A stretch of 33,750 nt of DNA. It comes from a virus. Where the stretch lies: positions 1 to 33,750 of the IMG/VR virus record IMGVR_UViG_3300042563_002531; one strand, given 5' to 3'. A program made the translations under genes and the position numbers. This document shows positions 1,468 to 27,519 of this stretch, piece after piece (within the stretch, counting starts at the first letter, position 1; each line of letters begins with the position of its first letter). The notes below the pieces were generated by a model. It worked only from the letters and a program-made list of their open reading frames with translations. It ran no database searches and was not told where the DNA came from.

Positions 1468-2046
1468 ATGGCATATCTACTAGACAGAATAAACGCACAA
1501 TTAGCAAAGACGGGCTACAAAGCACGATCTCAGCAAGCTAGGACTTGGTTGCAATCCAAGATTGGTGATTTGCGAGCAACACCAAATAAACTAGCGAAAT
1601 CTGCGGAAAGAAACACTCCAAAGAGTCTCGTTGGTAAACTGTACTTCTTCTACTATGATCCTAAAACGAAAGATAAGCTGCCATATTACGACAGGTTCCC
1701 CTTGGTTTTTCCAATTGAACTATACCCAGACGGTTTTCTAGGGCTGAATTTACACTACATTCACCCAAAGCAGCGTATCATTCTATTAGATAAATTGTCA
1801 GAATTGGCTACAGATAAGAGATTTGATGATAGAACGAGATTGAAATTGTCATATCAGACGCTATCATCATTCAGTCGTTTGTATGAGGCTAGCCCATGTA
1901 TCAAGCGATATCTAGGAAGTCATGTTCAAGGACAATTTGTGGAAATTCCAGCGAGTGAATGGGATATTGCTGCACTGCTCCCAGTTGAACAATTTGAAAA
2001 AGCAAATAAAAATAAAGTCTGGGCAGACTCACGAAAGAAAATGTAA
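1468..2046 (+). CDS. Conserved T4-like phage structural-region protein, unnamed
   Basis: 192 aa. The central part (VGKLYFFYYDPKTKDKLPYY, then DRFPLVFPIELYPDGFLGLN, then LHYIHPKQR) looks like a protein that recurs beside gp4 in T4-type phages of aquatic bacteria. I cannot tie it to a T4 gene: in T4 the gene after gp4 is gp53, but this sequence does not resemble gp53. There is no signal peptide or membrane segment. The last third (ASEWDIAALLPVEQF) is acidic and amphipathic. It shares its last base with the next ATG (TAATG overlap), which implies translational coupling to the tail-tube-like gene. A structural or assembly role is inferred from position only. Confidence 0.75.
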   Translation: MAYLLDRINAQLAKTGYKARSQQARTWLQSKIGDLRATPNKLAKSAERNTPKSLVGKLYFFYYDPKTKDKLPYYDRFPLVFPIELYPDGFLGLNLHYIHPKQRIILLDKLSELATDKRFDDRTRLKLSYQTLSSFSRLYEASPCIKRYLGSHVQGQFVEIPASEWDIAALLPVEQFEKANKNKVWADSRKKM

Positions 2047-2813
2047 TGTCATTTTTACCACAGTTATTCCTTTCAAACATACAGGCCAAAGATGGTCTTG
2101 CGCGACCGAACAGATTTCAGGTCATTCTTCCTATTCCTCAATATATCGGAAACTATATTGAGTCCGGCTTGATTGAACAACTATTGAATTTTCCAAACTC
2201 GGTGTTCTCTGACATTACAACCAGAGTTCAAGGCGCGTCAGACAGTCGTTCATATAATCCTACGATTTCCCGATATCTTGCACTACAGTGTGAGTCGGCC
2301 GAGCTACCGGGCAAGAGTGTGGCGACTGCTGACGTTAGTATATATGGTCCAATATTCAAAGTTCCATATCGCGCATTGTATGAGGACATCAATTTGACTT
2401 GGATATGCACAAATGAATTCTATGAAAGAAAGTTGTTTGATAAGTGGCTAGAAGCCATGGTACCGAATGACACACACAATGCACGTTTTTCACAAGGTGA
2501 AAAAACACGATTCACAACAAACATCAAGATTGTGCAGTATGACGATTTCATCAAACAGATTTATGCAGTTGAATTGATTGATGCATTTCCAGTTGCTGTG
2601 GCACCACAAACGCTGAGTTGGGGCGATGACGGCTTTCATCGCCTTTCAGTTCGTTTTGCATACACCAGCTACAAAACAATATATGAGGGTGCTTATGATT
2701 TGGCAGCAGCCACTGCTGCACTGCTAGGCTCAAGCGTCAGTGGAGTGCCTATATCCGCAGTATTAAACACACAGGTCCGTGGAACAGCGGAAGCGATAAG
2801 AAGAATTTTTTGA
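2046..2813 (+). CDS. 54: Tail-tube family protein, probable gp54-like tube initiator
   Basis: 255 aa. The middle reads ESAELPGKSVATADVSIYGP, KVPYRALYEDINLTWICTNE, FYERKLFDKWLEAMV, then IKIVQYDDFIKQIYAVELIDAFPVAV, the pattern of the tail-tube (gp19) and tube-initiator (gp54) family. At 255 aa it is longer than a gp19 tube subunit (about 163 aa in T4) and nearer to gp54 (about 320 aa), with an N-terminal extension and an Ala-rich tail. Location next to gp48 favours gp54, which sits on the baseplate centre and seeds tube growth. gp19 is the alternative. The start overlaps the previous stop. Confidence 0.65.
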   Translation: MSFLPQLFLSNIQAKDGLARPNRFQVILPIPQYIGNYIESGLIEQLLNFPNSVFSDITTRVQGASDSRSYNPTISRYLALQCESAELPGKSVATADVSIYGPIFKVPYRALYEDINLTWICTNEFYERKLFDKWLEAMVPNDTHNARFSQGEKTRFTTNIKIVQYDDFIKQIYAVELIDAFPVAVAPQTLSWGDDGFHRLSVRFAYTSYKTIYEGAYDLAAATAALLGSSVSGVPISAVLNTQVRGTAEAIRRIF

Positions 2814-2828
2814 TTATTTGGAGATACT

Positions 2829-3557
2829 ATGTTACCTAAAATTGATGTGCCGATTTATGAAATAACTTTACCACTACTACAAAAGAAAGTAAAGATTAGA
2901 CCATTTCGTGTAAAAGAAGAGAAGATTCTTCTAATGGCGATGGAATCGGAAGATGATGCTGCTGTATTGCTTGCGATCAAACAGATTGTAAACAACTGTT
3001 GTGTTGATGATATGGATGTGGATTCACTTCCTGTTTTGGATTTGGAGTACATGTTTCTGCAACTTCGTGCAAGATCAATTGGTGAAATCATTGATCTTCA
3101 GTATCGTTGTAATAACGATGTTGATAGTGAGGATGGAATTAAAAAATGTAACAACATCATCAAACTAAGTTTCAATGCGCTTGAAGTTGAGCCTCAGACT
3201 GAGGAAGGTCACAAGAAAGAGATACAGTTGACGCCAAAACTAGGCGTTGTAATGAAGTATCCTGATTTTAAGTTAGTCAACAAGTTATCCAATCTTTCCG
3301 AAACGGAGATGATTGCAAAAATGGTTACAGGATGCATAGATTACATTTTTGATAATGATTCAGTCTACTACGCAAAAGATGCATCTGAGGCTGAGCTAGT
3401 CGATTTTGTTGATAGTCTGACTAGAGAACAGTTTGCAAAAATACAAGAGTTTTTTGATACCGTACCCAAAATGAAGAAGAACTTGACATTCAAGTGCTCT
3501 AAGTGTGGTTACGAGGAAGAGTTGGTGTTGGAAGGAATACAAAGTTTTTTCGGATAA
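2829..3557 (+). CDS. 26: gp26-like baseplate hub/chaperone protein, 0-frame product
   Basis: 242 aa of the T4 gp26 baseplate family (VPIYEITLPLLQKKVKIRPF, RVKEEKILLMAMESED, then LDLEYMFLQLRARSIGE). The C-terminus carries a Cys4-like zinc ribbon, CSKCGYEE, with further Cys in YRCNN and KKCNN upstream. GGAG precedes the ATG at good distance. The gene stops 4 bases after a perfect slippery heptamer (TTTTTTC, 3545-3551) followed by a hairpin. The next frame continues without a convincing start of its own, so this is probably the short form of a frameshifted pair. It lies directly upstream of the tape measure gene, where tail assembly chaperones are normally found. Confidence 0.8.
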   Translation: MLPKIDVPIYEITLPLLQKKVKIRPFRVKEEKILLMAMESEDDAAVLLAIKQIVNNCCVDDMDVDSLPVLDLEYMFLQLRARSIGEIIDLQYRCNNDVDSEDGIKKCNNIIKLSFNALEVEPQTEEGHKKEIQLTPKLGVVMKYPDFKLVNKLSNLSETEMIAKMVTGCIDYIFDNDSVYYAKDASEAELVDFVDSLTREQFAKIQEFFDTVPKMKKNLTFKCSKCGYEEELVLEGIQSFFG

Positions 3558-3590
3558 CCTTTCGCCACGATAGTTTGGCGAATCACTATC
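3545..3590 (+). promoter_or_regulatory. Programmed -1 ribosomal frameshift signal
   Basis: T TTT TTC lies in the zero frame of the gp26-like gene (codons 240-241) and matches X XXY YYZ exactly. After a 9-base spacer comes a perfect 7-bp hairpin, 3561-3567 (TTCGCCA) with 3576-3582 (TGGCGAA), loop of 8. Six loop bases (GATAGT, 3569-3574) are complementary to 3585-3590 (ACTATC), so a pseudoknot or an alternative hairpin can form. The 2-base third loop may be too short to span the whole first stem. Confidence 0.8.
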
Positions 3591-3748
3591 AAACAAACTT
3601 TGCGTTGATGCAACACCACAAATATTCATTGGGTGACTTGGAAATGATGGTACCATGGGAAAGAACAATTTACATAACCATGCTCATGCGCCACATTGAA
3701 GAAGAGAATGAAAAAATAAAGCAACAAATGCAGAATAGAAGAAAATAA
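3551..3748 (+). CDS. -1 frame extension of gp26-like protein (tail assembly chaperone C-terminal part)
   Basis: After slippage at 3545-3551 the ribosome would read 65 more residues (RITFRHDSLANHYQTNFALM and on to KQQMQNRRK), giving a 306-aa fusion. The segment HKYSLGDLEMMVPWERTIYITMLMRHIEEENEK resembles the second part of frameshifted tail chaperones (G/GT type): short helices, then an acidic-basic helical end. The only upstream ATG in this frame (3503) lies inside the gp26-like gene with no ribosome binding site, and the next (3608) is deep inside the conserved part. This supports production by frameshifting. The stop is followed after 1 base by the tape measure ATG. Confidence 0.75.
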   Translation, partial: RITFRHDSLANHYQTNFALMQHHKYSLGDLEMMVPWERTIYITMLMRHIEEENEKIKQQMQNRRK

Positions 3749-3749
3749 A

Positions 3750-5612
3750 ATGGCAACTTTCACCGATATTTACAAACAAGAACTGAAGGGTAAGGGCGTA
3801 CTCAACTCTCTTGGAACGGCTGCACTCAAGCGCACACGCGAGAAGCTGGACATTAGAAATATGCTTTTCGGTGGAAGTGGTGCTATTGCTGCAACAGGTC
3901 AGAAGGTATTTGGTAAAGGATATCAGGCAATACAGAAGGGCGGATCCACCGGAAAAGCTGTATCAGAAAACATCGGCACACAATCTATCGCCATGGATCA
4001 GTTGTTGGTGTCTGCGCAAAAACAAGAGGCTCAGCTATCCATAATTGCTAAAAACACAATGAATAGCAATGCCATGGCCAGAGACATGAATGTGACTCGA
4101 CAGAATATCATGAAGTTGGTAACTATGGGTGGAGGAAAAGCCAGTCGTGGTGCTGATATGTTTTTCAAGGACGCGGCCGCAAGAGAATCTGCGTATGAAT
4201 CTCAATTTAAAAAAGGTAGAGAAAAACAAACAACACCAACACCAGTAGCTGAGAAAAGTAAATCTGGTGGAATGTTAGCGATGTTTGGTGGAATTGCAAC
4301 TGCGATTGTTGGAACAATTAGAAGTGCGTTAGGTGGTATACCTGATCTCCTAAAAAGCATATTCTCAGTTGATAATCTTTTGAAAGTGTTCGGAATAGCA
4401 GGAAACGTCATCAGTGGAATTGTAAAGTTGTTACCTATGTTGGTCAGCCCAGCATTTTTGGGTATCATTGCTGCGGTTGCAGGAGCAACTTGGTTGATGA
4501 AATTTATGGAGAGTAAAAATGCTGAGGCCAACACTCCAGAAAAAATCCAAGGTAGAATTGAGGACAACTCAGGAAGCAGTGGAGCAAAAGCGGCCAGCGA
4601 AAGCGCATCAAGAAAAATTGATCAGGGATTGAGGGACGCAGCTTCAGGAAACTACAGTGATGAATTTGTTCAAAGATACACAGGCGGAAAAGAACTGCCC
4701 ACCGGAGAAATTGTTGGCGGAATAAAAACGCAAAAAGAACTTCAAGATGTGATAAAAACTGCCGATGAGCAAGGCAAAAAAGAAATAACCATAGGTGGTC
4801 CAAGTGCATCAGAACAGGCTAAAGATGTGCGCCTTGGACCATCACCAACAAAAATGTCGCTTTTAGATGCCATAGCAAAAGGAGAGTCTGCCGGAGCGGG
4901 AGGATATGATGCAATGAATCAGGGCACAGTTGGACTTGCAGGTAGAGTTGTTGGATCAGGAAATTCAGAAAAAGTCATTGGTAAAAAATTGACAGATATG
5001 ACTATTGGTGAAATCATGGCCAAAGGCGCTAAGAAAACCGATAGTGCTGAAAAAAGACGAGATCAAGGTCTGATTTTTGCCGCAGGAAGATATCAGATTA
5101 TTCCCGAAACACTAAAAGGATTAGTTGACTCAGGAATAGCGTCCAAAGATGAAAAATTTAGTCCAGAAGTGCAAGACAGACTCGGCATGCAACTAATCAA
5201 ACAAACTGGAGCAACAAAATTAGCAGCAGAAGGAAAATATGATGAGGCACAAAATGCATTAGCCAAGACCTGGGCTGGAATACCATTAGCAACAGATGTT
5301 GTTGATAAGAAGGGTAATCTCAAAAAAGCAGGACAGTCATTTTATGCTGGTCCAGGTAATAAAGCACATGCTGGTTCAGGCAAAGATGTGCGTGCATCAT
5401 TGATGGCTATGAACAATAATGCTGGAGACAATTTATCACAAGGAAGCAGTGCGCTAGCCGCAGTGTCGCGTGATATGAATGTTGCTCAAGCACCGAATGT
5501 TGTAGTGAATGCGCCACAAACTACAGTTGCATCTGGCAAAGGACAATCTGCACCAGTTGCATCAGCAACAAACGTGGATGCTCTAGAGTTGTTTTTCAAA
5601 TACGCCATGTAA
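3750..5612 (+). CDS. Tail tape measure protein with C-terminal muramidase-like domain
   Basis: 620 aa, near the 590 aa of T4 gp29. The N-terminal ~170 residues are helical and Gln/Lys-rich. Residues ~175-255 hold hydrophobic membrane-active segments (MLAMFGGIATAIVGTIRSAL; AFLGIIAAVAGATWLM). From ~370 to 545 there is a lysozyme-like domain: LLDAIAKGESAGAGGYDAMN, LTDMTIGEIMAKGA, FAAGRYQIIPETLKGLV, FSPEVQDRLGMQLI, KTWAGIPL. The Glu in KGESAG is the likely acid. Tape measures set tail length and are ejected into the envelope, where such a domain would cut peptidoglycan. The protein is the last gene of the plus-strand tail block and is followed by a terminator hairpin. Confidence 0.85.
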   Translation: MATFTDIYKQELKGKGVLNSLGTAALKRTREKLDIRNMLFGGSGAIAATGQKVFGKGYQAIQKGGSTGKAVSENIGTQSIAMDQLLVSAQKQEAQLSIIAKNTMNSNAMARDMNVTRQNIMKLVTMGGGKASRGADMFFKDAAARESAYESQFKKGREKQTTPTPVAEKSKSGGMLAMFGGIATAIVGTIRSALGGIPDLLKSIFSVDNLLKVFGIAGNVISGIVKLLPMLVSPAFLGIIAAVAGATWLMKFMESKNAEANTPEKIQGRIEDNSGSSGAKAASESASRKIDQGLRDAASGNYSDEFVQRYTGGKELPTGEIVGGIKTQKELQDVIKTADEQGKKEITIGGPSASEQAKDVRLGPSPTKMSLLDAIAKGESAGAGGYDAMNQGTVGLAGRVVGSGNSEKVIGKKLTDMTIGEIMAKGAKKTDSAEKRRDQGLIFAAGRYQIIPETLKGLVDSGIASKDEKFSPEVQDRLGMQLIKQTGATKLAAEGKYDEAQNALAKTWAGIPLATDVVDKKGNLKKAGQSFYAGPGNKAHAGSGKDVRASLMAMNNNAGDNLSQGSSALAAVSRDMNVAQAPNVVVNAPQTTVASGKGQSAPVASATNVDALELFFKYAM

Positions 5613-16219: not shown

Positions 16220-16852
16220 TTAGAGAATGTGATCCGCAATTTGTAATTTTACCAATTCATCTGCACTCATCCAAACGTCACTTGGCGATAACAGTTTGGT
16301 TTTTACTTCACGGGCTGAAAGATCGGACGCATCCTGCAAAATGTTTAGCATTCGCTTGTTGGTCAACTCAGCTTCTTTTGTGAATGATTTCAAATCGTGA
16401 TGTTTACCCTCATATGTGTCTGAGTATTGGTGACACATGATACCACAATTTTTAGTGATGTATCTTTGACCCTTTGTGCCGGATGCAAAGATAAGGAATC
16501 CAGCGGACATGATAGCGCCGATTCCGATTGTTTGAATTGGATTTGGACTCAGCCTCATCACATCAATTAGTGCAAGGGCTTGATACAAATCACCGCCAAT
16601 TGAATTCACATATAGTCTCAGAACAGTTTCTGGAGATGTTGTTCCATTCTGATAGATGATCCATTGGATTGCATTGAGGATATTGTCTTCCTCAATATCA
16701 CCAGATAGAAAATGAATGTGATTGTCCAAAAATTCATTTTCTATCCTGTCTTGAACACCGAATAGCAAGTCGCTACCTATTGGTTCAAGTTTTCGTTTCG
16801 TGTTTCTCTGCATCAGCTTTTTCTGATTGTTCTGAATCTGGAAGTTCATCAT
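16220..16852 (-). CDS. clpP: ClpP-like serine protease
   Basis: 210 aa. Catalytic residues are in ClpP positions: Ser116 in GAIMSAGF, His141 in CHQYS, Asp192 in SPSDVW. LYVNSIGGDLYQALALIDVM provides the oxyanion glycine pair and the helix that follows. Phage ClpP-like enzymes are used as prohead proteases in many phages, or could act as general proteases; the gene is far from head genes here. No Clp ATPase of the usual type is visible in the window. The start overlaps a small gene by 68 bases, so a later Met (residue 14) is possible. Confidence 0.85.
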   Translation of the reverse strand: MMNFQIQNNQKKLMQRNTKRKLEPIGSDLLFGVQDRIENEFLDNHIHFLSGDIEEDNILNAIQWIIYQNGTTSPETVLRLYVNSIGGDLYQALALIDVMRLSPNPIQTIGIGAIMSAGFLIFASGTKGQRYITKNCGIMCHQYSDTYEGKHHDLKSFTKEAELTNKRMLNILQDASDLSAREVKTKLLSPSDVWMSADELVKLQIADHIL

Positions 16853-20927: not shown

Positions 20928-22928
20928 TCACTTGCTTGTTGCTCTAAATGTTCCGTCCCAGTTTGCGGGCTTACCTTCTTGTAATCTCTCAAACATTGCG
21001 TCATAGTACGGAATCATTTCTGGACTTGCATTTTTGCAATAGTAAATTGATCTAATTGCATCATCCCAATTTCCAGCATAGTATCTCTCTAAGAATTCTC
21101 GGTGGAGTTCTGTTTCTGTTGCGAGGGTGAAGATTTTGACACCCTCCTTCTTGCCCTTAACCGCAATACAATCCAATTCAAAAATACTGTAAGTGTCGGA
21201 TACTTGATTTGCAGTTTGAGGACCAAGAACGATACGCACGCCATAAGGCTTTGACTGACCTTCAAGCCTAGCTGCGAGATTGACATGATCACCAAGACAA
21301 GTATAGTCAAAACGCTGGTCACTACCCATATTACCAACAACAACAACTCCAGTATTAATACCGAGACCCATGCCAAAAGCTGGAACACCTTCAGCGACAA
21401 CTTCTTTATTGAATGCATCTAAACTATCCATCATTTCTAGTGCAGTCTTCACCGCCATCTTAGCGTGATTCGGTTCATCAACTGGTGCGTTCCAAAACGC
21501 CATTTGAGCATCACCAATATACTTATCAAGTGTGCCATTGTTCTCTATAATTTGTTTCGTCATAGCCGTCATGTAACGGTTCATGATCTTTGTCAATCCT
21601 TGAACGTCTTTACCGTAGTGCTCAGATATCGCAGTGAATCCTCGCACATCGGTGAACATTATTGAAAGTTCTCTTGATTCGCCACCAAGTTGTAGTAGTT
21701 CAGGATTTCGTTGGAGCTTTTCAACCAAAGCTGGTGAAAGGTAGGTTCCGAATTGCTTTTTGATTTGTAATTTTTGGCGTAGTTCAACCAAGAATTTGAC
21801 AACGTAGCCGTGGAAAGAGACAAGGGTAACGGTAAGTATCGGCCACACAGCATCAACCAAATGGCCTGATCGTAAAAATAACTCATGGCTTGTGTAGTAT
21901 GCTGCAACGGCGAATAAGACTGCGAATATGTATCCATGTGTGAACCTAGTGAGTGCTAGTGTAATCAAACACACCAACACGATTGAAATCAATTCTGCAC
22001 CAGTTGCCCAATCTGGTCGCGATATGTTTGTTCCGCTTGCTACCGTGTCGAGGACAGAGGCTTGCAGGTGATGTGGGTAGACTTCACCTCTTGCTGTTGC
22101 AACTGGATTGTTGAGTCCTCTGGCGGATAGTCCAACGATGACAATTTTACCACCGAAGTCTTTTGGCAAATTAGCCAAGGAATATTCAGGCGCTCGGGAT
22201 GACCAATCCACCCAGACTCTACTGTAACTGTCTGTTGTGATTTTTCCAAACTGTGGAATTCTAACAGCTTCAATTGCTCCGTCGTTGATCTTGACTTGAA
22301 AGGAAGGATCACCTGCTGCGACTCGCAGGGTTTCAAGTGAGATACTTGGATATAGTTGCCCACCGATGTTGATGAGCATTGGGACTCTTCGGACAACGCC
22401 GTCAAGTTCAGGAATAGTGTTGACAATACCAATACCAGCAGCGTTTTCATTGATAACCTTTACGTTAGATAAAATGGAATCATACTTGATTCCGGGATCA
22501 CCTTCACCGATGATTGAAACGCCAGGTCTAAATGCATTGTTCTTTACCGTTGCGTCATCGGTTGCTGTATGTGGAAATACAACAGGATATTCTTTTAGAA
22601 CAGGAAGTAATTTATTGTCTTCACCAAACCTATCACGATCAGGCATGAAGATATTAAGAACAACCAACCCAGCACCACGCCTATAAAGATCAGCGACAAT
22701 GGATGCATATTGTCCGCGAGGGAACGGGAACTGACCTTGCTGTCGAATAGTTTCGTCATCTATGTTTACCACAGCGACTTGTTCAGACTCTGTGCTCTCT
22801 TTTGATGTTATAAGTTGGTCAAAATAACGCAACCTTGTGGATTCAACAAATGCAGGATCAGCAATTCTAACACCAATCAACAATATAAGTGTTATGATGG
22901 CTAGCCATGGCGATAGTAATCTCTTCAT
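20928..22928 (-). CDS. CHASE2-domain class III adenylate cyclase
   Basis: 666 aa. One N-terminal membrane helix (~5-22), an extracytoplasmic CHASE2 sensor (~30-300: VVNIDDETIRQQGQFPFPRG; VYPHHLQASVLDTV), three membrane helices (~311-375), then a class III cyclase (~420-600). Metal-binding Asp427 (FTDVRGFT) and Asp473 (KYIGDAQMAFWNAP), Lys469 at the purine-specifying position, and Asn550/Arg554 (GDHVNLAARLEG) are all present. The enzyme should be active and Lys469 favours ATP over GTP. It is the last gene of the curli-like operon and overlaps the FecR gene by 4 bases. A phage-encoded nucleotide cyclase of this architecture is very unusual. Confidence 0.93.
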   Translation of the reverse strand: MKRLLSPWLAIITLILLIGVRIADPAFVESTRLRYFDQLITSKESTESEQVAVVNIDDETIRQQGQFPFPRGQYASIVADLYRRGAGLVVLNIFMPDRDRFGEDNKLLPVLKEYPVVFPHTATDDATVKNNAFRPGVSIIGEGDPGIKYDSILSNVKVINENAAGIGIVNTIPELDGVVRRVPMLINIGGQLYPSISLETLRVAAGDPSFQVKINDGAIEAVRIPQFGKITTDSYSRVWVDWSSRAPEYSLANLPKDFGGKIVIVGLSARGLNNPVATARGEVYPHHLQASVLDTVASGTNISRPDWATGAELISIVLVCLITLALTRFTHGYIFAVLFAVAAYYTSHELFLRSGHLVDAVWPILTVTLVSFHGYVVKFLVELRQKLQIKKQFGTYLSPALVEKLQRNPELLQLGGESRELSIMFTDVRGFTAISEHYGKDVQGLTKIMNRYMTAMTKQIIENNGTLDKYIGDAQMAFWNAPVDEPNHAKMAVKTALEMMDSLDAFNKEVVAEGVPAFGMGLGINTGVVVVGNMGSDQRFDYTCLGDHVNLAARLEGQSKPYGVRIVLGPQTANQVSDTYSIFELDCIAVKGKKEGVKIFTLATETELHREFLERYYAGNWDDAIRSIYYCKNASPEMIPYYDAMFERLQEGKPANWDGTFRATSK

Positions 22929-23953
22929 TTTGAAACCTGTTTTATATAAATCTTGTTGGTCACATCGTCTTGATTTTTGACAGTAACTGTGGCACGATCT
23001 TGTATCAAGATGATTTCATAACCACGTTCTTTATTTATCAGTATTGTTGCAGCTTGAGTTATCTGCCTATCAATCTGCCATTTATCACCTTTGTCAATAA
23101 CATACACTTGTGTAAAAGCATTGAAACCAACTTTGAAGGTGTTCATCAATAAAAAGTCCAATTCATTAGTCAAGTAATCAGAATCAAGAGCATTGATGTT
23201 CAATTCATTGAACGATAGATCATCTTTCCAAACAGGAACATCAAGTGCATTACGATCAAGTTCAACAAATGCCAGAGGATCATTTGCTGTTAGATTTTCA
23301 TCAATTAACTGGCGAATGATTTCTTTTGGTGGGCTCACGATCAACATATTGTCTATCGCAGACTCGGTCAACTTCAGCAACACAGGTTTCATAGGTTTTA
23401 CCTCAGACACGGAAACATGTGTTGCTTGAAATGCTTGCGTAAGTACAACCGATCCCATCGCGCTACTCACTTCAATCTCTCCAATAGAACCGTCAGCGTT
23501 GGGTAAAAGAATTACCATAGATTGACCAATTTCGTCCACGGTCATAGTAAACGCCGTACCACGAACCGCGACTGTAGCTGTCGGTGTTTTTATATTAACG
23601 TTTTTATTATTCTCTTTCGCTATGCCACCAGATGCATAACGCACTGTGCCCAAAGCTACGCGCATGGCCAGCTTGCCTGTACCTTTGGATTTTGGATCAT
23701 ACACAAAATCATCTATGACCAAACGTGAGTGTTCAGTCACCCGGACTTTAGTGTCGTCTTCAAACGTAATTCCTATTACACCTCTAGCAGTTTGAATACT
23801 GTCCATAGCCTCAACGCCAACATTCATTTTGGCGTCTACTTTTGATTTGCTACGGACAATTTCTGCGCTACCTTTCTCCTCAGTAACTTTGCCGATTGAT
23901 GCGTATGAATTAGTGCTGAATAATAGTATGAGTAGTGCCAGAACCCGTAACAT
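22925..23953 (-). CDS. Secreted FecR-domain protein
   Basis: 342 aa. Signal peptide MLRVLALLILLFSTNSYASI with probable cleavage after YAS. FecR domain: GSAEIVRSKSKVDAKMNVGV, TFEDDTKVRVTEHSRLVIDD, KTPTATVAVRGTAFTMTVDE. The C-terminal ~170 residues are acidic and of unknown fold. FecR proteins beside CHASE2 cyclases are a recurrent pair in proteobacteria, where the periplasmic FecR domain may pass a signal to the sensor. The start lies 44 bases inside the curlin gene. Confidence 0.85.
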   Translation of the reverse strand: MLRVLALLILLFSTNSYASIGKVTEEKGSAEIVRSKSKVDAKMNVGVEAMDSIQTARGVIGITFEDDTKVRVTEHSRLVIDDFVYDPKSKGTGKLAMRVALGTVRYASGGIAKENNKNVNIKTPTATVAVRGTAFTMTVDEIGQSMVILLPNADGSIGEIEVSSAMGSVVLTQAFQATHVSVSEVKPMKPVLLKLTESAIDNMLIVSPPKEIIRQLIDENLTANDPLAFVELDRNALDVPVWKDDLSFNELNINALDSDYLTNELDFLLMNTFKVGFNAFTQVYVIDKGDKWQIDRQITQAATILINKERGYEIILIQDRATVTVKNQDDVTNKIYIKQVSK

Positions 23954-24617
23954 TTAGCGTCACTATGTTAGGTGTTGTTGTTCCATTCTGAGTGATTGAA
24001 ACTACGTTTTGTGAGCCAATGATTGTGCTGGTTATCTTATGTCCTACTGTCGTTGATGTTCCGTTCGCGCCGGATTGTGTTGTAGTGTATGTGTTTGAAT
24101 CGCCAGTAATTGTTATGTTATTTTCAACATACTTACTATTGATTGTGCTGGTGATTGCGTTACTGTTACCTACAGCAAGTAAATTGTAATTGTAGTTTCC
24201 AGCATTTGCAGTTGAGCCGAATGTCCAATTCGTGGTGTTGTTATCACCAGTCAATGTGAGATTCATTGATCCTGCGTTTGTGCCGAAGATACCCATCGTC
24301 ATTGTTGTGCTGTTTGTGCTTCCGGTTTGTATAATGTTTGCAGTTGAGTCACCACCGATGAAGTTGCCTACGATGATGTTGTTCATACCGTCCTGAACAA
24401 TTGTTAAGTCCATAGCGTTTCCGTCTATGATAAACGCAGGTGTGACAAGATCGGCTCGATCACCGACTTTGTTTCCTGAGCCTGTTTGTGTAATGCTGAC
24501 TGTAGAATTGTCCGCATTCGTCTGATCAATATACACTGAGTTGTCACCACTTGATTGTGCAAAAATGTTGGTGACGAATAATAAAGACATGATACCTAAA
24601 AGTATTGTCTTTTTCAT
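23910..24617 (-). CDS. Curlin-repeat (CsgA/CsgB-like) secreted amyloid subunit
   Basis: 235 aa from MKKTILLGIMSLLFVTNIFA at 24617, with GGAG 10 bases upstream; a longer frame from 24656 would spoil the signal peptide. After cleavage (FAQ) the protein is Asn/Gln/Ser/Thr/Gly-rich with curlin-like strands: NSVYIDQTNADNSTVSITQT, DLTIVQDGMNNIIVG, NNITITGDSNTYTTTQSG, NVVSITQNG. Such repeats stack into beta-solenoid amyloid on the cell surface. The repeat count is irregular, more so than in E. coli CsgA. The N-rich composition is unlike every neighbour gene. Confidence 0.85.
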   Translation of the reverse strand: MKKTILLGIMSLLFVTNIFAQSSGDNSVYIDQTNADNSTVSITQTGSGNKVGDRADLVTPAFIIDGNAMDLTIVQDGMNNIIVGNFIGGDSTANIIQTGSTNSTTMTMGIFGTNAGSMNLTLTGDNNTTNWTFGSTANAGNYNYNLLAVGNSNAITSTINSKYVENNITITGDSNTYTTTQSGANGTSTTVGHKITSTIIGSQNVVSITQNGTTTPNIVTLNVTGSGTTHTIIQH

Positions 24618-24622
24618 TGGAT

Positions 24623-25420
24623 TTATTCTCCTAATTGTAGTTGTTTGAATTGCCAAAGTCCTTTTCGCTGTCCCTGATATACCAGTTCTTCAACAGCCAA
24701 ATCTATTGCTGCTTTTACTGCATATATTCCAGGTTCAGTGGATGTGCTACCTATCTCACCCTCAAAAGAGGTTCTTCCTTGGTCATAAAATTTGAATGTC
24801 GATAATGACGTTGCAACACTCAAAATTGTTTTCTGTGTGTTGACTGTCAATATGACTTCACCTGTTTGTACGTTCACTGCTCTAAGTGAGACTGTGACCA
24901 TATCTTCCTGATACTGTGTCATAGGTCCTACGCCCAAATATCTAACACCAAATCCACCTGTCCGCTTGTTCGTATCATACGAAACAATTGATCCTTCAAT
25001 AATCATACCTGCATACAAAATAGGACGAAGTATGTTTGGTTCCCTAGCTTCATCTCTCGCACTGCGAATTAGTTGACGCTCTTTCAGTAAGTTATCTAAA
25101 CCTACTCGCTCAACAATTCTAAACCATTTGCCGTCACCAACATCAGATAGTGCTTTCAACAATAAAGACTCCGCACCCTGTGTTACTGCGGAAGAAAGTT
25201 TAGCGATTATTGCACTGTCCTTTCTCTGTCCAGTCTTATCAGTGAATGCATACACAGCAACCACGATAGGTTGACCAGTTTCAGGTTCAGGAAAAGGAAC
25301 CTTAAATTTAGTTGGTGCCACCTGTTCAGCTTCTTTAGGTTCAAACTGAATTGGCCATGCCGCGCAGCCAGTCAATGCAAGCACCATAAAAGCTGCTAAT
25401 ATAATTTTTATAAGTGTCAT
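24623..25420 (-). CDS. csgG: CsgG-like outer-membrane curli secretion channel
   Basis: 265 aa (E. coli CsgG 277 aa). Lipoprotein signal with lipobox LTGC, Cys19 lipidated. The body matches CsgG: IVVAVYAFTDKTGQRKDS, GAESLLLKALSDVGDGKWFR, IVERVGLDNLLKERQLIRSA, GFGVRYLGVGPMTQYQEDMV, TVSLRAVNVQTGEVILTVNT. CsgG forms a nine-fold pore for unfolded curli subunits. It shares one base with the csgF stop and lies 5 bases before the curlin ATG. Confidence 0.93.
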   Translation of the reverse strand: MTLIKIILAAFMVLALTGCAAWPIQFEPKEAEQVAPTKFKVPFPEPETGQPIVVAVYAFTDKTGQRKDSAIIAKLSSAVTQGAESLLLKALSDVGDGKWFRIVERVGLDNLLKERQLIRSARDEAREPNILRPILYAGMIIEGSIVSYDTNKRTGGFGVRYLGVGPMTQYQEDMVTVSLRAVNVQTGEVILTVNTQKTILSVATSLSTFKFYDQGRTSFEGEIGSTSTEPGIYAVKAAIDLAVEELVYQGQRKGLWQFKQLQLGE

Positions 25421-25860
25421 TAGAATTTGAATTGGCCAACTGGAATTATAATCTCAGTCACAGAACCGTCCGAAGAGGTTACCATCAAATTTATGTCACT
25501 ATCAGTTTTGAAATATTTTATTGTGTTGTCACCCACGGTGACTTGCCCAGAACTTTGTGGATTTTCACCAAAAAGATTATTCACCAACTGTGATGATAGT
25601 TGAGCATACACTCGACTTTCAAAATTGTTTAGAAATTTCTGGAGATTTGTGTTCTTGGCTTCTGCGGCCGCGTCTTTTGCGGCCTGCAATTTTGTAGATT
25701 CTGCGGCATCTCGGCGTGTTCGCTCAGTATTTTCTATAGTCTGAACATGGGAAGAATAACCGATACCAGTAAATGCGGGAGATTTGAACTGGAAAGCCAA
25801 TTGTGCATGTGTGGAAATGACCACCATGCACAGAAATAGGGAAATTATTACACTCTTCAT
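25420..25860 (-). CDS. csgF: CsgF-like curli assembly factor
   Basis: 146 aa (E. coli CsgF 138 aa). Signal peptide MKSVIISLFLCMVVISTHAQ. The mature start LAFQFKSPAFTGIGYSS matches the CsgF segment that plugs the CsgG pore. LQKFLNNFESRVYAQLSSQL and the C-terminal beta strands (DGSVTEIIIPVGQF) are also typical. It is the first gene of the operon. CATAAATA just upstream puts a late start at or near the A of the ATG, and no ribosome binding site is seen. No csgE is visible in the window. Confidence 0.9.
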   Translation of the reverse strand: MKSVIISLFLCMVVISTHAQLAFQFKSPAFTGIGYSSHVQTIENTERTRRDAAESTKLQAAKDAAAEAKNTNLQKFLNNFESRVYAQLSSQLVNNLFGENPQSSGQVTVGDNTIKYFKTDSDINLMVTSSDGSVTEIIIPVGQFKF

Positions 25861-26079: not shown

Positions 26080-27519
26080 TTACAATACTGCGTATCGGTC
26101 GCTCAGGATGGTTTTCAACATCACAGACTCTGGTGTAAAGTCTTCCAGATCACCTGCAAGCAATGGCTTGACAACTGCTGGAGAGAAACCAGACACAAGT
26201 GCGGTACCACTCTTGTCAAACTTCACTGGCGAGTTGCCATATGAAGCATTCAAGTTCCAGAACACAACCTTTGGCAAGGTGTATCCTGCGGCTTCGTACT
26301 TTCGTGCGATCATTTGGATAGCAGAATCATCGTGATTAACACATTGATTGAACTGCATATCTGACAGAATCAATACCATTTCTGGCATTTCATTCTGTGG
26401 AACACCGGCACCTACTGCGGTAGCAAGGATTTTTGCAAATGCCTTGTTCAAGTCGGTGCTCATTTGCCAGGTAGACTTGATCATTTGATCAATCTTTTGG
26501 TTTATGTTACCTTTCAGGTGCAACAACTCAGGGTTAGATGAGAAGGTCAAGAATGTATCCTTGAACTTACCAGTGTTCTTGTCTGCAAGATACAATCCCA
26601 AAGAGACTGCAACTTCCATACATGACAACTTGCTGTTTGAACCGTGTCCACCAGCTGGGGTTGACATAGAACCAGAAACGTCCACCAGAGGTAGGATGTT
26701 TCCATCGCCAACGTAGTTTGGCAGTGCTTCCCATTGCTTTTGGATCAAGTCCAATTCAGTCTTGTCAAACTTCACTCCGTAGGAGTTGATACGACCCTTC
26801 AACACATCATATGGATACACAGCGCCAGCGTTGACTTTTACTTCAACGGTGCGATCTTTTGGATCCTTCATCAACTCAGCAACATACTTACCATATTCTG
26901 GTGTGTTACGGTTGAATGCTTTCTTGTATCGTGCTGATGCAACTGATGGTACGTGTGAGAAGTTGATGGAAGCCCATTCCTTAGCACACATTTGAGTTTC
27001 AACAACTTTAGTCATTTCAACCAAAGACTTACGGTAAAACTTAGGTGACATGCCGAAGAACTTACGAACTTCAACAGCGATTGGACCTTGACGAGGTGTC
27101 CACTTTGCAGCCAAACCATTCTTGGCGCGCAATGCATCGCCCAGCATAGTGTAAGCAGCTTCCTTCATCTCTTTGGTATCAAAGATGAAGATATCGTCCC
27201 AACGTCCCAATTCGGGGACTTTGTGTAACAAAGCCTTAGCAGCCACAGTGTCATTCTTTTCCAGATACTTTAGAATATCACGGAACAATTGACGTTCACC
27301 TGCACCACCACGTGCATCACGCGACCATGCGGCCACGCGAAGTGCTAATTCTTTGTTCTCGGCGAATGCAGCCACGAATGTTGGAATAACATCCTTGCCG
27401 CGGCTTGCACCGATGTTGTAAAACATATCAACCACAGCGTTTGCGGTTGACTTACGTGCCTTCATACCATTTGTGGTACGGGCTTCCTGATTCTTCACAG
27501 CTTCTACGAAAGTTGACAT
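26080..27519 (-). CDS. Ro60-like TROVE/DUF2828-type vWA protein
   Basis: 479 aa. N-terminal TTNGMKARKSTANAVVDMFY, then IGASRG, and the HEAT-like LRVAAWSRDARGGAGERQLF resemble the TROVE/DUF2828 ring of Ro60 and Rsr. From ~272 a vWA domain follows, with complete MIDAS: D280-x-S282-x-S284 (DVSGSM), Thr355 (STDLNKAF) and Asp387 (ILSDMQF). Ro proteins are doughnut-shaped RNA chaperones that bind Y RNAs outside and misfolded RNA ends in the pore. Directly upstream on the same strand lie E1-E3, two of which look like tRNA-mimicking Y RNAs. The family assignment (TROVE against the DUF2828 branch) is from recalled pattern. Confidence 0.82.
   Translation of the reverse strand: MSTFVEAVKNQEARTTNGMKARKSTANAVVDMFYNIGASRGKDVIPTFVAAFAENKELALRVAAWSRDARGGAGERQLFRDILKYLEKNDTVAAKALLHKVPELGRWDDIFIFDTKEMKEAAYTMLGDALRAKNGLAAKWTPRQGPIAVEVRKFFGMSPKFYRKSLVEMTKVVETQMCAKEWASINFSHVPSVASARYKKAFNRNTPEYGKYVAELMKDPKDRTVEVKVNAGAVYPYDVLKGRINSYGVKFDKTELDLIQKQWEALPNYVGDGNILPLVDVSGSMSTPAGGHGSNSKLSCMEVAVSLGLYLADKNTGKFKDTFLTFSSNPELLHLKGNINQKIDQMIKSTWQMSTDLNKAFAKILATAVGAGVPQNEMPEMVLILSDMQFNQCVNHDDSAIQMIARKYEAAGYTLPKVVFWNLNASYGNSPVKFDKSGTALVSGFSPAVVKPLLAGDLEDFTPESVMLKTILSDRYAVL

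Follow-up and report, generated by a model that had tools for sequence, protein, structure and literature searches.

A probable −1 programmed frameshift yielding short and long tail assembly chaperones in an uncultured T4-like phage

In the window, that is the whole analysed stretch of 33,750 nucleotides of the IMG/VR record IMGVR_UViG_3300042563_002531, a gp26-like gene and the reading frame that follows it very probably form a single −1 programmed frameshift locus encoding a short and a long tail assembly chaperone, in a G/GT-like arrangement, within a T4-like (Kyanoviridae-type) phage. This extends the known chaperone frameshift of T4-like phages to an uncultured aquatic lineage and provides a clear hypothesis for its stimulation, namely an upstream Shine-Dalgarno-like element in place of a hairpin.

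The locus lies on the plus strand. The gp26-like gene (2829..3557), encoding the 242-aa putative short chaperone (TAC-N), matched PF12322 T4_baseplate (2e-61) and phrog_150 (1e-67), which places the zero frame in the T4 gp26 family, and it is adjoined upstream by a gene for a gp19-like tail tube protein (2046..2813; phrog_45, 3e-31). The zero frame ends with AGT TTT TTC GGA TAA, such that the slippery heptamer T TTT TTC (3545..3551) stands in X XXY YYZ phase two codons ahead of the stop codon TAA (3555..3557), which is located 3 nt past it. The −1 frame is open from position 3551 for 65 codons, up to a TAA at 3746-3748, and the ATG of the next ORF is at 3750. The predicted frameshift product (TAC-NC, 2829..3748) would be 241 + 65 = 306 aa long with the junction ...IQSFF|RITF..., and the corresponding predicted peptides would be the junction peptide CGYEEELVLEGIQSFFR for the long form versus CGYEEELVLEGIQSFFG for the short form. 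An earlier note on this DNA had described the in-frame heptamer just before the gp26-like stop, the 65 codons ending at the next ORF and the 306-aa fusion, and both the direct reading of the sequence and the arithmetic agreed with it. The next ORF (3750..5612; 620 aa) bears a lytic-type domain (phrog_90, 3e-22 at 356-567) and is presumed, from its position and weak homology, to encode the tape measure protein; it is placed as the annotated tape measure genes are in phiM12 and HTVC008M. The position of the short gp26-like ORF (2829-3557) upstream of this large ORF (3750-5612) fits a chaperone-type placement.

The heptamer is not rare in itself. TTTTTTC occurs 16 times on both strands of the AT-rich window, versus 18 for a reversed-pattern control, and we thus dropped rarity as evidence; the weight must consequently rest on the context and on the relatives. 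We gathered 76 distinct contexts comprising the window, IMG/VR relatives and named phages, and in 72 of them the gp26 gene closed with TTTTTTC or TTTTTTT in phase, the stop being exactly 3 nt past the heptamer in 68 of these 72 slippery contexts (59 contexts combined TTTTTTC with a stop exactly 3 nt on). The heptamer was also in phase in all members (60/60) of a second set drawn with the gp26 of cyanophage ACG-2014j and of KVP40, which possibly overlaps the first set in part; KVP40 gp26, used as a probe of viral contigs, matched only itself and one close relative. The conservation of the heptamer that the earlier note proposed to check was thus borne out. The cultured phages Melnitz-3 (Methylophilales) and HTVC008M (Pelagibacter), both sharing the CHASE2-cyclase gene of the window, have AGT TTT TTT TAA at this place. 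The codons of the heptamer are constrained beyond the need of the protein: the first Phe codon was TTT in 72/72 contexts versus 66% elsewhere in the gene, the codon preceding the Phe pair ended in T in 72/72, and where it encoded Ser it was AGT or TCT in 47/47 versus 51% elsewhere, these counts overstating significance to the extent that the relatives are not independent. Together with the evidence that the −1 frame is coding, described below, the position, phase and conservation of the heptamer are far beyond chance.

The −1 extension (3551..3748, 65 codons and the stop) corresponds to a gp51-like C-terminal domain (TAC-C), matching phrog_634 “baseplate hub assembly catalyst” (gp51) with an E-value of 9e-26 and also the far C-terminus of phrog_150 (2e-5). 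Comparison with relatives gave pN/pS values of 0.11-0.24 in the −1 frame of the extension versus about 0.9 or above in the other frames; the extension evolves as a protein in the −1 frame only. The −1 peptide is conserved right from the codon that follows the slip, R[IVL].

The relationship with T4 proteins is consistent with this layout. T4 gp26 is the PF12322 domain without the tail, and residues 1-201 of T4 gp51 are the same domain followed by a tail, its last 48 or so residues corresponding to the −1 tail of the window. Both T4 and Aeromonas 25 gp51 are in-frame fusions of the PF12322 domain and the tail, and the profile of the frameshift product aligned with them right across the junction. 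T4 gp26 and gp51 have been listed as hub assembly chaperones, gp51 being needed yet missing from the completed particle (PMC3004832). Sullivan et al. (PMC3037559) remarked that gp51 of cyanophages reaches only some 20% of its length in T4, as would be expected if the tail comes from a frameshift. AlphaFold gave a confident model of the short form (pLDDT 88.5), whose highest-probability PDB match was the HK97 tail assembly chaperone 2ob9, with a probability of 0.60 and a non-significant E-value of 0.83; a sequence search against solved structures returned no match.

The −1 tail could alternatively be a separate small gene (gp51) with its own start, whose translation either initiates internally or restarts where the stop overlaps. 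Separate gp51 genes are indeed annotated in GenBank for S-PM2, P-SSM2, KVP40, HTVC008M, Melnitz-3 and Mosig; the −1 frame of the window contains a GTG (3503) and a TTG (3575), and S-PM2, P-SSM2 and KVP40 have an ATG right after the stop that could possibly start the tail. Against this, the earlier note had pointed to the lack of a good start in the −1 frame, and no ATG, GTG or TTG was present before the conserved domain in 22 of the 66 testable relatives (no ATG in 48/66), with none in Ishigurovirus before codon 31 of 57. No Shine-Dalgarno sequence was found ahead of either TTG 3575 or ATG 3608 in the window, and the annotated ATG of Melnitz-3 and HTVC008M intrudes into the domain. An independent start would also leave unexplained why the heptamer is in phase and why its codons are constrained, and we consider it highly unlikely; neither of the two outcomes that the earlier note had named as refuting its reading, a heptamer that is not conserved or an independent start of the downstream frame, was borne out. 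Many marine phages have small genes annotated as “gp51, baseplate hub assembly catalyst” that are probably the frameshifted tail of gp26 rather than separate genes. The published “gp51” of Melnitz-3 (461-604), HTVC008M (467-604) and P-HM2 (2283-2375; all positions in the retrieved sequences) starts at an internal ATG, clipping the conserved tail, and such genes are probably misannotated frameshift extensions.

The frame could also be shifted by RNA polymerase slipping on the T run, instead of the ribosome. The run is T-rich and reaches 7 to 8 T in some relatives, but in the window it is short, six T followed by a C, and it is always in the X XXY YYZ phase, which the polymerase would not require, while the upstream Shine-Dalgarno-like element implicates the ribosome; polymerase slippage thus appears extremely unlikely. 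Finally, one gene might have been split by a sequencing or assembly error, or might be decaying, the source being a viral contig from a collection mostly built from metagenomes. The same stop and frame relation was however found in independent contigs and in the finished isolates S-PM2, KVP40 and DLP6, which already refute this explanation and leave it a negligible probability. Ribosomal frameshifting is therefore the reading that we retain.

What stimulates the putative slippage is suggested by the region upstream of the heptamer, where a conserved feature had escaped the earlier note. The window has a Shine-Dalgarno-like GGAAGGA (3530..3536) about 8-9 nt before the heptamer, and its relatives have in common a GGAGGG or GAAGGA whose centre lies 11-12 nt ahead of theirs. 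Over 72 contexts the mean anti-Shine-Dalgarno duplex energy reached −6.6 kcal/mol at −12/−11 versus −0.9 for the background. The codon usage points in the same direction: Gly was encoded by GGA at the element in 48/71 cases (68%) versus 124/474 (26%) elsewhere, and Glu by GAG in 44% versus 19% elsewhere. These biases support the view that the element is kept at synonymous positions, and we infer that it probably stimulates slippage.

The earlier note had instead emphasized downstream structures. We recovered all of them in the window: a 9-nt spacer (3552-3560), a 7-bp hairpin (3561..3582) formed by TTCGCCA (3561-3567) with TGGCGAA (3576-3582), and a loop sequence GATAGT (3569-3574) complementary to ACTATC (3585-3590). 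With a z of −2.85, this hairpin is more stable than its composition would predict, but it is private to the window: neither a consensus fold nor covariation was detected in 37 relatives, and the median z of the downstream structure was 0.27 over 72 contexts. The hairpin or pseudoknot is therefore ruled out as a conserved signal, and the conservation of the stem that the earlier note proposed to look for failed to appear. In addition, the pseudoknot as drawn leaves 2 nt (3583-3584) to bridge the 7-bp stem, and such a span is sterically doubtful. Strong hairpins occur near the site in some other lineages (S-PM2, P-SSM2). The hairpin of the window and its loop complement would thus be at most a lineage-private helper. 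In Pelagibacter phage Mosig (2994-3028 of the retrieved sequence), the heptamer is kept and the zero-frame stop is shifted to 24 nt downstream, so the nearby stop is not essential.

Ackermannviridae (Vi01, Ds16CZ, VP-1) and Vibrio phage K355 were exceptions, being devoid of an X XXY YYZ heptamer with the tail still in the −1 frame. Vi01-type phages exhibited at the end of gp26 an invariant ATT TTC AT[TC] TAA preceded by GA[AG] (GAA ATT TTC ATT TAA in Salmonella phage Vi01), and their tail had no ATG, GTG or TTG before about codon 11, well inside the domain; this suggests that they may recode at a non-canonical site. The gp51-like tail of Vi01 is unannotated (3715-3910 of the retrieved sequence). 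Limestonevirus, VP-1 and K355 have a TAATG overlap instead. Across these T4-like phages, we tentatively propose, with slightly less than even confidence, that the conserved Shine-Dalgarno-like element and the stop at 3 nt are the main drivers of the chaperone frameshift, that hairpins are a lineage-private tuning that comes and goes, that Ackermannviridae recode at the non-canonical A ATT TTC, and that T4 swapped the frameshift for gene duplication.

The site, its phase and conservation, the coding of the −1 frame and the homology to gp26 and gp51 were observed directly; the occurrence of slippage, its rate, its stimulator and the chaperone action of the products are inferred, and the mechanism would operate as follows. 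Most ribosomes would terminate at 3555, producing the 242-aa gp26-like short form, and a minority would pause while their tRNAs occupy TTT and TTC (3546-3551), slip one base back (onto TTT, TTT) and append 65 residues to give the 306-aa long form. Slippage would probably be stimulated by GGAAGGA, through pairing to 16S rRNA, and by the stop close by, with perhaps some contribution of the local hairpin. If the two forms act as lambda G and GT do, the short one would coat the tape measure protein, and tail tube subunits would be recruited by the long one.

The lambda slippery sequence, G GGA AAG, is unlike that of the window. The lambda G/GT system, like other siphophage and myophage chaperones (Xu, Hendrix and Duda, 2004), shares with the window the production of a short and a −1-extended form from one gene located beside the tape measure gene, but it belongs to another sequence family, that of the window being the zinc-ribbon-like gp26, PF12322. 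The chaperone of Pseudomonas phage Adele, of Vandenendeviridae and Andersonviridae (PMC12846349), likewise deduced from comparative genomics, also combines a −1 frameshift and a T-rich site; it differs by its GTTTTT motif and by the phage lineage. The window further shares its type of heptamer and its upstream Shine-Dalgarno-like element with Escherichia coli dnaX. The dnaX gene has an XXXYYYZ heptamer preceded, at a distance of about 10 nt, by a Shine-Dalgarno-like element; its shift makes a shorter product and involves a downstream stimulatory hairpin, whereas the hairpin of the window is unconserved.

The closest system is that of the T4-like phages themselves. Vladimirov, Gautam and Davidson, in 2022 (Virology 566:9-15), reportedly assigned the chaperone role in T4-like phages to gp26/gp51, which are produced by a frameshift in some groups and from separate genes in T4, and are said to name T4 genes 26 and 51. 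Both PRFect (PMC10885494) and the phage Adele paper (PMC12846349) cite this work. The gp26-type short form, the gp51-type tail and, in some groups, the poly-T −1 slippery site are shared with the window, the difference being that T4 makes its short and long forms from two genes (26 and 51) whereas the window has one gene and a frameshift. The earlier note's proposal of a G/GT-like chaperone arrangement on a gp26-type protein was thus strengthened by the gp51-like tail and its in-frame counterpart in T4 gp51; such an arrangement had already appeared in print for T4-like phages in 2022. The T4-like chaperone frameshift is already described, and the window is a well-supported new example of a kind of system that is not new.

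Several other genes were observed on the minus strand of the window. The region 20928-25860 encodes a CHASE2 adenylate/guanylate cyclase, a FecR-domain protein and further ORFs, which resemble the curli/CsgG/FecR/cyclase cassette of Melnitz-3 (Methylophilales) and HTVC008M (Pelagibacter). An ORF at 26080-27519 would encode a putative DUF2828/DUF7788 vWA (Ro60-like, TROVE-type) RNA-binding protein (phrog_850), and a ClpP-like protease or head-maturation-protease-like ORF is located at 16220-16852, distant from the other head genes of the window.
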